Positions 15,210 through 50,410 of a DNA stretch of 64,000 nucleotides are shown piece after piece. The translations under genes and the position numbers were made by a program. This stretch comes from Candidatus Poribacteria bacterium (lineage in GTDB: Bacteria > Poribacteria > WGA-4E > PCPOR2b): positions 1-64,000 of the forward strand of contig JAJECO010000094.1 in the NCBI GenBank assembly GCA_022822005.1, given 5' to 3'. How positions within the stretch are numbered: the stretch's first letter is position 1; every line of letters begins with the position of its first letter. Under the pieces are notes generated by a model that had not been told where the DNA came from, ran no database searches, and was given only the letters and a program-made list of their open reading frames with translations.

Positions 15210-16349
15210 TTACGGATTAACATAGGTTTCATTCAGATATCGGGCGATGATCTTGATATCTTCTTCTTCGAGGAAAAGTCCGTTATCGATCATCCGGACG
15301 ATAAGCTCTGTGGTCTCCTCTTCCGATGTTGGTGGGACATTATCAACATCTGATAGGTCGTGGCAGAGGGAACAGGTAATTTCAAACAACTCCCTCGCGG
15401 CTTCTGGGTCATAAGCCTCTTCAACCGGTGTTTCACCCGCCTCTTCAACCTCGTCCGGATTCACAATCACTTCATCTGGATTTACAATGACTTCATCCGG
15501 ATTTACAATCGCCTCATCTGCCACTTCATCCGGATTTGTCAAAACGGCTAAAGCGTTTTGTGCTTGGCTGACCTGCATTCGCTGTCTCCGCTGCTCTTTC
15601 GCTGATACTTGCAGTTCGGGCGTGATGGCGATGAGATATGCGGATACCGTCCACTGATCTTCTTGGGTAATTGGTTCCCCTATTATCGGTTTGATTGCCA
15701 TCCGATCCACCGTGCGCACCCAATCCGGCGGCGTGCGTGGACGTATTAGGATGGTTCGCAAATCGTGGCACTGAACGCATTTCTTCAGTAGAACGTCCTG
15801 TCCTTCACGCAGTTTCCGCCTTGTAGCCAATCTATCGAGCGGTGCATCGGGCGGTAATCCCGCCATTTGCAGTCGGGTATGCGTTCGTTCGATGCTGGCA
15901 TCACTGAAGACATTGCTGCTGACCTGCCGGACACTTTCTCGCAATGTGAAGGGTACGGAGAGACCAATTAGCAGATAGGTGCATATCAAGAGGACTGTCC
16001 CGATATATGGCATTGCCTCCTCAAAATGTCGGAAGAAGCGAAGGATCGAAATTTTGACCAACAGTAAAACGCCGATTGTGATACCGAGCATGAGGTGGGC
16101 AACGGTACGGGGTGGGAGTTCAACCTGATAGTTCCACAACCGGGGCACCATGTGCCACATCATGAAGACGTAGAGGATTAGATATGCATATCCGATAGCG
16201 CGATGGACGAACATCAGCGACTTCGGTGCCTCACTGGTCCGGGTTTCATGGTCGAAGGGATAGCCCCACAGTTTATACATCAAAAATACGGATGCATTGC
16301 CCAAACCAAGAAAGACAAGACCGAGTATTGTACTGGTTGCAATAGACAT
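15210..16349 (-). CDS. Membrane protein with four helices and two c-type heme sites
   Basis: 379 residues. Four transmembrane helices (about 5-27, 45-70, 82-106 and 114-137) carry histidines H49, H66 and H85 that could hold b heme. A periplasmic part follows with two c-heme motifs, CVQCH at 191-195 and CSLCH at 316-320, with possible Met ligands near 217 and 343. Between the hemes is a tandem NPDEV-I-V repeat. The best reading is an inner-membrane electron-transfer protein linking the quinone pool to periplasmic or outer-membrane partners; this is inference. The start ATG has AGGAGG 12 bases upstream. Last gene of a three-gene leftward cytochrome cluster. I do not recognise the full-length family. 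Confidence 0.8.
   Translation of the reverse strand: MSIATSTILGLVFLGLGNASVFLMYKLWGYPFDHETRTSEAPKSLMFVHRAIGYAYLILYVFMMWHMVPRLWNYQVELPPRTVAHLMLGITIGVLLLVKISILRFFRHFEEAMPYIGTVLLICTYLLIGLSVPFTLRESVRQVSSNVFSDASIERTHTRLQMAGLPPDAPLDRLATRRKLREGQDVLLKKCVQCHDLRTILIRPRTPPDWVRTVDRMAIKPIIGEPITQEDQWTVSAYLIAITPELQVSAKEQRRQRMQVSQAQNALAVLTNPDEVADEAIVNPDEVIVNPDEVIVNPDEVEEAGETPVEEAYDPEAARELFEITCSLCHDLSDVDNVPPTSEEETTELIVRMIDNGLFLEEEDIKIIARYLNETYVNP
15447..15538 (-). repeat. In-frame 21-bp tandem repeat encoding NPDEV-I-V units
   Basis: Four degenerate copies of a 21-base unit coding for N-P-D-E-V-I-V lie in the linker between the two c-heme domains; the first-translated copy carries a short insertion (ADEA). 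The unit is acidic and probably a flexible or metal-binding spacer. Confidence 0.8.
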
Positions 16350-16403
16350 CGTATCTTTTCCTCCTACAGATCAGATCCCTGAAAGTTTCAACCAAAAATT
16401 AGA

Positions 16404-17585
16404 TTAGAACCAGAAATGCGACATCAAGATGAGTTGATCTATCCCTTCAAGCTGGCGGTTGGACTGTGTTGCGTCCCGGTCATCGTTTGCAATGTTCAGC
16501 CAGTAGAATAGCTCAAGGGAACCGTTTTGCATAAAGATATATTGTGCAGCGAGCGTCACACGCTGGCTTCCATCCCCTTTGATCGTACGATCCGGATCAA
16601 ACAGCCCGTAGCGTCCGGAGAGCATCAGTTCCGGCATCACACGATACTTCGCACCAAGATAGTAACCTTTGGAGGTAATGTCATCATCGCTAGCTCCGAC
16701 GCTCTCATCATCGCCGAAACTGCTTCCGAAATTGAACTCGCCTTCGAGCGTGAGATTCTTGAGGGCAGCAGTCAAAAACGCGCCGGCCGTCATTTCACGA
16801 TCTGACTGCCTCCCGCTATCAAGAAGAAATGATACACCGCCCCGCACGGGTCCAAGCGTACTGCCAGCGGTTGCGGCCCACCCTTTATCCTGATTCGGAT
16901 CTACAGTCTGTCCTGCATTCCGTCCCCCGTTAAACACGGCGGCATTGTAGAATAATTTGCCGTAAGCACCTCCAACCCCCACACCGACATCCCGTTTATG
17001 CGATCCGAGGTTATACCCTTGTCGCACAAGGATGTTGTGGTCTCTCTGTTTAAGGCCAAACGGGATTTGGAATTGTCCCACCTTGACGTAGAGATGTTTA
17101 GGTATGGCGTCAACCGTTGCAAACATGTTGAGGGGTGTGCCCATGTTGTTGGATAGAGTCAAACTGAGCTTGTCCGAAGCCTGTGCGTTGAGGGTCAATT
17201 CACCCTGCATTAAAAGGAAGCTGTCAACGGAAGAATGGCAGGAGTTACAGGAGGCTATTGCACGTTCTTCGACATCGACATGGACAGTCTTGATATAAGC
17301 CGTACGAATGTTGACCGCTGTTGTGAGTCTCTGGCGGACCTCTTCTGCCTCCTTCATAATTGCTTCAGGATCGAAATCTTCGGGAAACTCAAAGTAGTTG
17401 TCCTCATAGACCTGTCCGACTGCGTTGCGCGGTCCTCCGCCCTCTGGATCGAGATGGCAGAAGATACATTCTTTGTCCTCCATCGCTGCAAATTCGGGGC
17501 GTGCCACGCTATTAGACACGAAAGAAACAGCTAAAAATCCGCTGAGTAGAAAGACCAAAAATCGAAACCGAAACCTGTACACCAA
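16404..17585 (-). CDS. Diheme cytochrome c fused to outer-membrane porin-like barrel
   Basis: 393 residues. A signal peptide (basic start, hydrophobic 8-22, likely cut after SVA at about 29) precedes two c-heme motifs, CIFCH at 40-44 and CNSCH at 113-117. From about 125 to the end alternating strands form a phosphate-porin/OprO-type barrel, finishing with the C-terminal aromatic residue (S-H-F-W-F) expected of an outer-membrane protein. A cytochrome joined to a barrel recalls Cyc2 iron oxidases, which have one heme and a smaller head, so this is not a standard Cyc2. Starts with TTG at 17585 (GGAGG 7 bases upstream) or the next codon, GTG. It is 54 bases upstream of the membrane cytochrome gene. 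Confidence 0.8.
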   Translation of the reverse strand: MVYRFRFRFLVFLLSGFLAVSFVSNSVARPEFAAMEDKECIFCHLDPEGGGPRNAVGQVYEDNYFEFPEDFDPEAIMKEAEEVRQRLTTAVNIRTAYIKTVHVDVEERAIASCNSCHSSVDSFLLMQGELTLNAQASDKLSLTLSNNMGTPLNMFATVDAIPKHLYVKVGQFQIPFGLKQRDHNILVRQGYNLGSHKRDVGVGVGGAYGKLFYNAAVFNGGRNAGQTVDPNQDKGWAATAGSTLGPVRGGVSFLLDSGRQSDREMTAGAFLTAALKNLTLEGEFNFGSSFGDDESVGASDDDITSKGYYLGAKYRVMPELMLSGRYGLFDPDRTIKGDGSQRVTLAAQYIFMQNGSLELFYWLNIANDDRDATQSNRQLEGIDQLILMSHFWF

Positions 17586-17647
17586 TTGAGAACCTCCTTA
17601 ACATGACAAAAGTGCAAAAATAGAGATGCCGGCTTGCCCGCCGCTCC

Positions 17648-18256
17648 TTATTCGAGCGGTACGAACACAAAGTCTGTGGCAGCAACTCTTGAATGACAGC
17701 CCGTGCAGACTCCTCCTTCAAAAGCCAAGCGGAAGTCTGCGTCCGGAGCGCTTCGTAGAAATTCCTCAAATCTCCAATCGCCGGCGTCGGGATTGCTTCC
17801 TGCCTCCTTCCACATCACTGCGATTAGTCCAATAAAGTCTTTACCCGGACGGGTTGCTTCCTTCACCACAATCGTGCCATCCGGATAAGGGAACTGCTGC
17901 TCACCGTTCGGGGCAATCGCCTCACGTGTTTGGTTGACATAGACATTTTTCGTTCCCCGATGTGGGTCACCGCCCGCCACTGGAGGAATTGGCTCAGCGT
18001 TCAGCTTAAGCCACCCCTCATATCCCGCAATATCGGCAGGGAGACCCGGGAGGGCGGCTGGTGGTTCTGGTTGTGGCATCTGTTCTGCTGGAGGTGGCTC
18101 AGGTATTTGTTCCTCCGGCTGCGGCTGCTGTGGGGCAGGTGGTTCAACTGTTACGATTTCCCCCTCATCCCCACAAGAAACGAAAATCGCACAGACGATA
18201 GTAACAAGACTCAAAATCAAGGGGCTTAGATATCTTTGGATTATTTTCTTTTTCAT
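17648..18256 (-). CDS. Cytochrome P460-like c-heme lipoprotein
   Basis: 202 residues. A lipobox (F-V-S-C28) follows the signal helix, then a Pro/Gln/Glu-rich linker (about 38-72) and a C-terminal domain with Y-P-D-G-T-I-V-V-K-E, D-W-R-F and heme motif CTGCH at 184-188. This pattern fits the cytochrome P460 superfamily, whose best-known members oxidise hydroxylamine, but many paralogues have unknown roles. It should be anchored in a membrane facing the periplasm or surface. First gene of the cytochrome cluster: 62 bases to the cytochrome-porin gene. The ATG at 18256 has no strong Shine-Dalgarno site. Confidence 0.78.
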   Translation of the reverse strand: MKKKIIQRYLSPLILSLVTIVCAIFVSCGDEGEIVTVEPPAPQQPQPEEQIPEPPPAEQMPQPEPPAALPGLPADIAGYEGWLKLNAEPIPPVAGGDPHRGTKNVYVNQTREAIAPNGEQQFPYPDGTIVVKEATRPGKDFIGLIAVMWKEAGSNPDAGDWRFEEFLRSAPDADFRLAFEGGVCTGCHSRVAATDFVFVPLE

Positions 18257-49795: not shown

Positions 49796-50410
49796 GTGGA
49801 GTGTTCCCGGTTGAATCTATTAGTTACTGTAATCAGTTGTCTAGCCGTGTTAGTATTTCCTATCTTCGTCACAGGGTGTGGTGAGGGCGATGGAGACGAT
49901 AGCGCCGGGGGCGATATTGTCGCACCCGATCCGGAGCCTGCCTCAGAGCCGACATCGCAACTGGAGCCACAGCCTGAACCTGAGCAACCACCTCCGGCAG
50001 AACAAGAACAGCCAGCACAACAGCAGCCAGAGCGGCCTCAACCTGAACCACCGGTTCAACCTCAACCTGAGCCTGAGGTACAACCACAGCCACAACCAGA
50101 GCCGCCACCTCTACCAGATCCGGAACCAGCAGTCACATTTCAGGAAGATATTTCACCTATCCTTCAGGCGAGATGCGCTTTCGCAGGATGCCATGCTGAC
50201 CCCAATCCAGCACGAGGGCTCAATTTGGGGACATACGCAGGCTTTGAGAAAGGTAGTGCCGGTGGTCCTGTGTTTAACCCTGGGGATAGTAAAGGGAGCA
50301 AGGTTATCCAACGGATTGATGGCGGTGGTATGCCGCCGGGTGCCCCGTTGGCTGACGACCAAATTCAACTCTTCAAAGATTGGATTGATGCGGGCGCGAA
50401 AGATAACTAA
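49796..50410 (+). CDS. Cytochrome c-like lipoprotein with Pro/Gln-rich linker
   Basis: 204 residues. Signal helix ending in a lipobox V-T-G-C28, then a long Pro/Glu/Gln linker (about 41-112) and a single domain with F-Q-E-D-I-S-P-I-L-Q-x-x-C and a C127-x4-C132-H133 heme-type motif, axial Met near 179 (G-G-M-P-P-G). This is the Planctomycetes-type cytochrome domain, in which C-x4-C-H is known. The design (lipobox, proline linker, small heme domain) is the same as in the P460-like lipoprotein at 17648. Start GTG at 49796, 9 bases after AAAGGAG. Ends at a terminator. Confidence 0.82.
   Translation: MECSRLNLLVTVISCLAVLVFPIFVTGCGEGDGDDSAGGDIVAPDPEPASEPTSQLEPQPEPEQPPPAEQEQPAQQQPERPQPEPPVQPQPEPEVQPQPQPEPPPLPDPEPAVTFQEDISPILQARCAFAGCHADPNPARGLNLGTYAGFEKGSAGGPVFNPGDSKGSKVIQRIDGGGMPPGAPLADDQIQLFKDWIDAGAKDN

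Follow-up and report, generated by a model that had tools for sequence, protein, structure and literature searches.

Cyc2, a demonstrated iron oxidase, combines a cytochrome with a single heme and a 16-strand porin in one fused protein; the motif AXPXFAR[Q/K][T/Y] stands in front of its CxxCH and PXL behind it (PMC8406198). In the conduits MtrCAB, PioAB and MtoAB, a decaheme cytochrome is inserted into a barrel of 26 strands (PMC8406198). Hemes of the P460 type are known to have very low potentials (-300 to -424 mV), and NsP460, which carries Ala at the position of the proton-accepting carboxylate, is inactive on hydroxylamine (PMC11928373). Here we describe a locus of a Candidatus Poribacteria bacterium (GenBank assembly GCA_022822005.1, contig JAJECO010000094.1; the first 64,000 nucleotides of this contig, the whole stretch analysed, are called the window). 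It encodes a P460-like heme lipoprotein, a Cyc2-like fused cytochrome-porin with two CxxCH motifs (heme-porin) and a four-helix membrane protein with two c-heme sites. We propose, at roughly even confidence, that the core of this system is an outer-membrane electron-transfer device made of a two-heme porin with a P460 partner.

Read directly, the window contains the three genes as consecutive open reading frames on the minus strand with intergenic gaps of 62 and 54 bases. This arrangement had been given in an earlier note on the same DNA, which had also named the P460-like heme lipoprotein and the four-helix protein with its two c-heme sites; all of this was confirmed. The genes and the parts of the heme-porin are located as follows:

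17648 to 18256, minus strand: gene of the P460-like heme lipoprotein, 202 amino acids (Pfam Cytochrome_P460, E=3.1e-13; PDB matches 7ead and 6hih)
16404 to 17585, minus strand: gene of the Cyc2-like fused cytochrome-porin, 393 amino acids, TTG start (AlphaFold2 (AF2) model, Foldseek, hhalign)
15210 to 16349, minus strand: gene of the four-helix membrane protein, 379 amino acids, with two predicted periplasmic class-I-like c domains (domain matches, orthologues)
17454 to 17468, minus strand: heme site 1, CIFCH, residues 40-44 of the heme-porin, in the N-terminal cytochrome domain, preceded by A-x-P-x-F-A
16410 to 17327, minus strand: predicted 16-strand barrel, residues 87-392, with a C-terminal aromatic residue (AF2; predicted local distance difference test score, pLDDT, of the strands mostly 60-86)
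17223 to 17282, minus strand: loop L1, residues 102-121, between strands 1 and 2 (AF2 strand boundaries; predicted extracellular side)
17235 to 17249, minus strand: heme site 2, CNSCH, residues 113-117, in L1, a Poribacteria-specific position
17037 to 17039, minus strand: codon of His183 in the constriction loop L3, candidate distal ligand of heme 1, present in 69/69 Poribacteria proteins

The conservation of these sites was followed in Poribacteria orthologues of the heme-porin (n=69), the P460 protein (n=58) and the four-helix protein (n=33). CxxCH was kept at site 1 in all 69 heme-porins and at site 2 in 65 of them, in every P460 protein (58/58), and at both sites of every four-helix protein (33/33). 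This conservation of the heme sites in the three proteins is far beyond chance.

A Pfam search with the heme-porin gave no match above cut-off. Its AF2 model comprises 16 strands at a mean pLDDT of 62, the N-terminal domain and L1 mostly being below 50. Very short turns, predicted to be periplasmic, alternate with mostly longer ones on the outer side, and both this pattern and the C-terminal aromatic residue are those of canonical general porins. The closest solved structures found with Foldseek were the general porins OmpU, Omp-Pst1 and DcaP (E~1e-11), pointing to a general 16-strand porin fold. VhChiP was among the top fold matches, too. N-terminal plugs occur in porins, VhChiP being an example.

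Strand 1 of the model covers residues 87-101 and thus precedes the second CxxCH. The model being weak in the region of L1, we checked this placement against relatives. The strand-1 segment (GxDxR or close to it) was found at the same place in all 16 proteins compared, with or without a second heme site, and the second CxxCH of Poribacteria falls between this segment and strand 2. Sequence comparison and model therefore both place the second CxxCH inside the barrel, in loop L1. The protein had previously been described as a diheme cytochrome fused to an outer-membrane barrel; the two motifs and the fusion stand, but an N-terminal diheme domain is rejected, as strand 1 comes before the second CxxCH in the model and in the relatives. 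Given canonical porin topology, L1 would face outward. At this position no CxxCH was seen in the Acidobacteriota, Nitrospirota and Desulfobacterota relatives compared. The presence of the second heme site is not tied to that of the P460 and four-helix genes, since genomes of the families f3 and f6 (G024, G025, G005) encode two-heme porins without strong partner matches. The earlier note had suggested looking for contact between barrel and hemes, and such contact is expected because both belong to one polypeptide chain.

The heme-porin shares with Cyc2 the signal peptide, the fusion of an N-terminal c-type cytochrome domain with an outer-membrane porin and, at the moderate confidence of the AF2 model, the number of 16 strands. 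Furthermore, A-x-P-x-F-A precedes the first CxxCH at identical spacing in 66-67 of the 69 Poribacteria proteins. The following R[Q/K][T/Y], the portion of the motif described as exclusive to Cyc2, is however replaced by T/A, E/M/Q and L/E. Likewise, PXL four residues after CxxCH is absent, and Poribacteria have PxGGG instead (P47, G49 and G51 in 69/69). Cyc2 has a single heme, whereas the Poribacteria protein has a second CxxCH in L1, and its gene is paired with a P460 gene in an organism that is no known iron oxidiser. A search with the heme module retrieved genuine Cyc2 proteins with the full motif from Nitrospirota genomes. When the heme-porin family was aligned to genuine Cyc2 with hhalign, a probability of 97.4% (P=1.5e-11) was obtained across the cytochrome domain and the beginning of the barrel, in a single pairwise comparison whose score comes partly from the signal peptide and CxxCH. 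Since the motifs are partly missing and the profile match is one pairwise comparison, we classify the middle protein from its sequence as Cyc2-like in architecture and cytochrome domain, not as Cyc2. Cyc2 had earlier been set aside as having different parts; measured against the published definition of Cyc2 (PMC8406198), this no longer holds for the middle protein. With MtrCAB, PioAB and MtoAB, the heme-porin has in common the presumed task, to let electrons cross the outer membrane by way of a barrel. In MtrCAB and PioAB, a separate multiheme cytochrome sits in a 26-strand barrel, whereas here 16 strands and two putative hemes belong to the same chain. The heme-porin is a variant within the fused cytochrome-porin kind rather than a system of a new category.

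Relatives with a single heme site turn up sporadically in Acidobacteriota, Nitrospirota and Desulfobacterota (L184-L187, L192, L193, L249-L251, L253). They share the heme domain with CHxNx[T/S]GGGxR, strand 1, L3 and the barrel but lack a CxxCH in L1. Among the proteins compared, those of Nitrospirota also have His at the position of His183, whereas those of Acidobacteriota (L184, L187) and some of Desulfobacterota (L249, L250) carry Asp there. A gene for a c-type cytochrome lies near the porin gene in all four Acidobacteriota loci read (L184, L185, L186 and L187), which independently hints at a role of these porins in electron transfer. At two Desulfobacterota loci (L249 and L253), a diheme protein is encoded nearby.

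The search in Desulfobacterota also returned a fused cytochrome-porin with both CxxCH motifs in its N-terminal domain (L248, genome G510), a different route to two hemes. At L252, a pair of CxxCH is found in an N-terminal open reading frame upstream of the barrel frame. The small c-heme module of the heme-porins (E[FY]A..G..C.FCHxDPxGGG) is also fused to a CopD-like membrane domain and a cytochrome-b5-like domain; this family of about 305 amino acids is widespread (L173-L177 and L198-L222; Nitrospirae, Desulfobacterales, Desulfuromonas and Aminicenantes). The gene before the Acidobacteriota heme-porin L184 encodes a PSCyt1-type protein similar to a Pro-rich lipoprotein with a Planctomycete cytochrome C (PSCyt1) domain and the atypical heme motif CAFAGCH (CX4CH) that is encoded in the window at 49796-50410 on the plus strand.

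The distribution was surveyed in 85 genomes of the phylum. Matches to the heme-porin were found in 75, to the four-helix protein in 70 and to the P460 protein in 72 genomes. Strong orthologues were present in 66, 68 and 66, respectively, of the 70 genomes of the families f1, f2 and f4. Four genomes of these families lack both heme-porin and P460 protein (G026, G032, G051 and G060; 73-86% complete). G005 and G012 have the heme-porin alone, save that G005 shows a partial and weak match to the four-helix protein. Gene order was analysed in 52 independent loci from public data, each reaching 1.6 kb or more upstream of the heme-porin gene. The P460 gene lies upstream on the same strand in 44 of them, mostly 50-250 bases away, whereas the four-helix gene was found downstream in only 4 of 53 loci, all from the genus of the window; the two genes are also adjacent in a sister genus (G015). 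From these counts, the conserved unit is the P460 gene with the heme-porin gene. The four-helix gene is retained along with them as a partner; it either became a neighbour late or was separated elsewhere. Homologues do therefore occur together across the phylum, a check that had been named for the three-gene cluster; the linkage that stands is that of P460 and barrel. A three-gene operon as the conserved unit is rejected, the four-helix gene being adjacent only in the genus of the window and one sister genus. In the f4 family (L036-L040, L045 and L050), a gene for a protein of about 1700-1900 amino acids follows the heme-porin gene. It was rejected as a part of the system, being a bacterial alpha-2-macroglobulin (identified in L040).

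The P460 protein consists of a signal peptide, a lipobox with Cys28 (conserved in 58/58 orthologues), a Pro-rich linker, the P460 domain (residues 77-198) and, towards the C-terminus, the motif CTGCH. It shows the cytochrome P460 fold together with its CxxCH (Pfam PF16694). Its residues were assigned by HMMER alignment to solved structures and Table 2 of PMC11928373:

17693 to 17707, minus strand: CxxCH, residues 184-188
17960 to 17962, minus strand: codon of His99, aligned to the distal cap position (Phe29 of TtCP-beta, Phe32 of McCP-beta); His in 58/58
17861 to 17863, minus strand: codon of Lys132, aligned to the heme-crosslinking lysine; Lys in 58/58
17819 to 17821, minus strand: codon of Ala146, aligned to the proton-accepting carboxylate; Ala in 58/58

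The alignment thus puts a lysine at the crosslinking position, as in cytochrome P460, while the invariant Lys132 differs from the hydrophobic residue that replaces the lysine in cytochrome c'-beta. The distal carboxylate required for hydroxylamine oxidation is replaced by Ala in all orthologues, so that a hydroxylamine-oxidising P460 is disfavoured. Lysine together with Ala is the combination found in NsP460. In the P460/c'-beta superfamily (NsP460, TtCP-beta, McCP-beta), the Poribacteria protein differs from the characterised members, which have Phe or Arg at the cap position, by its invariant His, which might ligate the P460 iron. It further differs in being a lipoprotein with a Pro-rich linker whose gene is linked to that of a heme-porin.

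The conserved lysine position and the fold, together with the pairing with the barrel as the most conserved linkage, could suggest that the two proteins form a module for reactive nitrogen or gases. In the periplasm, P460 would bind or transform NO, hydroxylamine or CO; the role of the heme-porin would be to supply or remove electrons or to admit substrate from nitrifying neighbours in the sponge. Such symbionts are common in sponges (PMC11812461). We consider this unlikely, since the Ala at the carboxylate position is that of the inactive NsP460 (PMC11928373), and since the barrel occurs without P460 in the family f3 and P460 without the barrel in the f7 genomes G009 and G010.

The same genome encodes further P460-like domains in an open frame of 340 amino acids with two tandem matches, which are 29-36% identical to the P460 protein of the window (G000:C93:128057-129001). 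Similar tandem matches were found in other Poribacteria. The genome G009 (locus L104), of the same class, has two P460 copies, next to a protein with ten transmembrane helices, and gave no match in the heme-porin search.

The four-helix protein has four predicted transmembrane helices, followed by two class-I-like c domains:

15960 to 16343, minus strand: four-helix domain, residues 3-130, with candidate b-heme histidines (weak DUF6529 match)
15765 to 15779, minus strand: c-heme site CVQCH, residues 191-195, in a SorB-like domain; candidate ligand Met217, invariant
15360 to 15374, minus strand: c-heme site CSLCH, residues 326-330 (Pfam CBB3, E=3.6e-6); candidate ligand Met353, invariant

Among the membrane histidines, His49, His85 and His108 are conserved in 33/33 orthologues and His66 in 30/33, with Tyr in the other three; these residues are possible b-heme ligands, and the pattern would suit either one b heme or two. 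One invariant Met downstream of each c-heme site is as expected of high-potential His/Met hemes. The c domains resemble class I cytochrome c of the SorB type (domain-level NCBIfam match, E=2.5e-10), but the match is far below the family cut-off, and SorB does not share the fusion of two c domains to a four-helix membrane domain. The AF2 model of the protein was poor (predicted template modelling score 0.35) and Foldseek was uninformative. A profile search against the PDB gave weak matches only, mostly to c-type cytochromes.

According to the conduit originally suggested, the four-helix protein would oxidise quinol with its b hemes and pass electrons over its c hemes, P460 and the barrel hemes to the cell surface. 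The gene order in the genus of the window, the candidate heme ligands of the four-helix protein and the retention of all three genes in f1, f2 and f4 agree with such an outward flow. However, electrons leaving high-potential His/Met c hemes would have to move uphill to reach a P460 heme at -300 to -424 mV (PMC11928373). In addition, the four-helix gene is adjacent at so few loci, the quinone site is putative, one of the candidate b-heme histidines (His66) is variable, and the genome encodes an aerobic oxidase (a single heme-copper oxidase, along with cytochrome c maturation genes), so that this explanation is less likely still. Least likely is a modified porin without any electron conduit, whose heme domain would serve as a plug (gate) responding to redox state or gas, or as an element of heme or iron uptake. 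The homology to an iron oxidase, Cyc2, and the recurrent c-cytochrome neighbours in two other phyla speak against it, even though the barrel is of the general-porin type, VhChiP with its N-terminal plug is a top fold match and fusions of this small heme module to CopD/cytochrome-b5 membrane proteins occur elsewhere.

For the outer-membrane electron-transfer device that we favour, we picture the N-terminal cytochrome domain as a plug in the periplasmic mouth of the 16-strand barrel, carrying heme 1, with His183 of the constriction loop L3 possibly as its distal ligand. The second c-heme would be mounted on L1 at the outer mouth, and the two hemes would exchange electrons between the periplasm and a partner, small or soluble, on the outside or within the pore. 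The tethered P460 lipoprotein would be the usual dedicated periplasmic partner of the porin, probably a heme enzyme binding gases or small substrates or a redox relay, and not a hydroxylamine oxidase. Periplasmic carriers would link the system to the respiratory chain, perhaps with the four-helix diheme protein as the inner-membrane partner. Electron flow inward to an aerobic chain appears more plausible to us than outward flow.

Several observations weigh against this proposal. The family f3 carries the barrel without P460 and four-helix protein, and in G013, G014 and G016 all three genes are retained on different contigs, unlinked. For heme 1, His183 can be called a candidate distal ligand only; as some relatives have Asp at its position, the family as a whole cannot require it as a ligand. 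Among the candidate distal ligands for heme 2, none was universal in the orthologues compared. The moderate quality of the AF2 model, above all of the N-terminal domain and L1, does not fix heme positions and distances. Furthermore, the very low potentials of P460 make a plain wire or relay from quinol to the surface through this protein unlikely; of the three-part conduit suggested before, the pair of P460 and heme-porin remains as the core. Neither iron oxidation nor electroactivity is known from Poribacteria.

Nevertheless, the sequences indicate that Poribacteria may pass electrons across the outer membrane via the heme-porin. Among the papers covered by a literature search, we found no description of a heme-porin/P460 system in Poribacteria. 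The full picture, a single porin of 393 residues bearing a c-heme at either face of the outer membrane, in the N-terminal plug and in L1, present throughout the phylum and partnered by a His-capped P460 lipoprotein, is put forward only tentatively. If true, no smaller self-contained electron conduit across the outer membrane would be known; the porin would have the first c-heme displayed on a porin loop, and its partner an unprecedented His-capped P460 heme pocket. Cyc2 demonstrates that a one-heme porin can support iron respiration, while it is an open question how its single periplasmic-side heme meets external electrons; a Cyc2 relative whose outer loop carries a second heme would be a natural experiment on this question that can be expressed and tested. 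The P460 superfamily would gain a pocket type not seen so far. Poribacteria are abundant and associated with sponges, and we know of no cultured member; for this phylum, the system would, if true, be a near-universal and previously undescribed redox trait.

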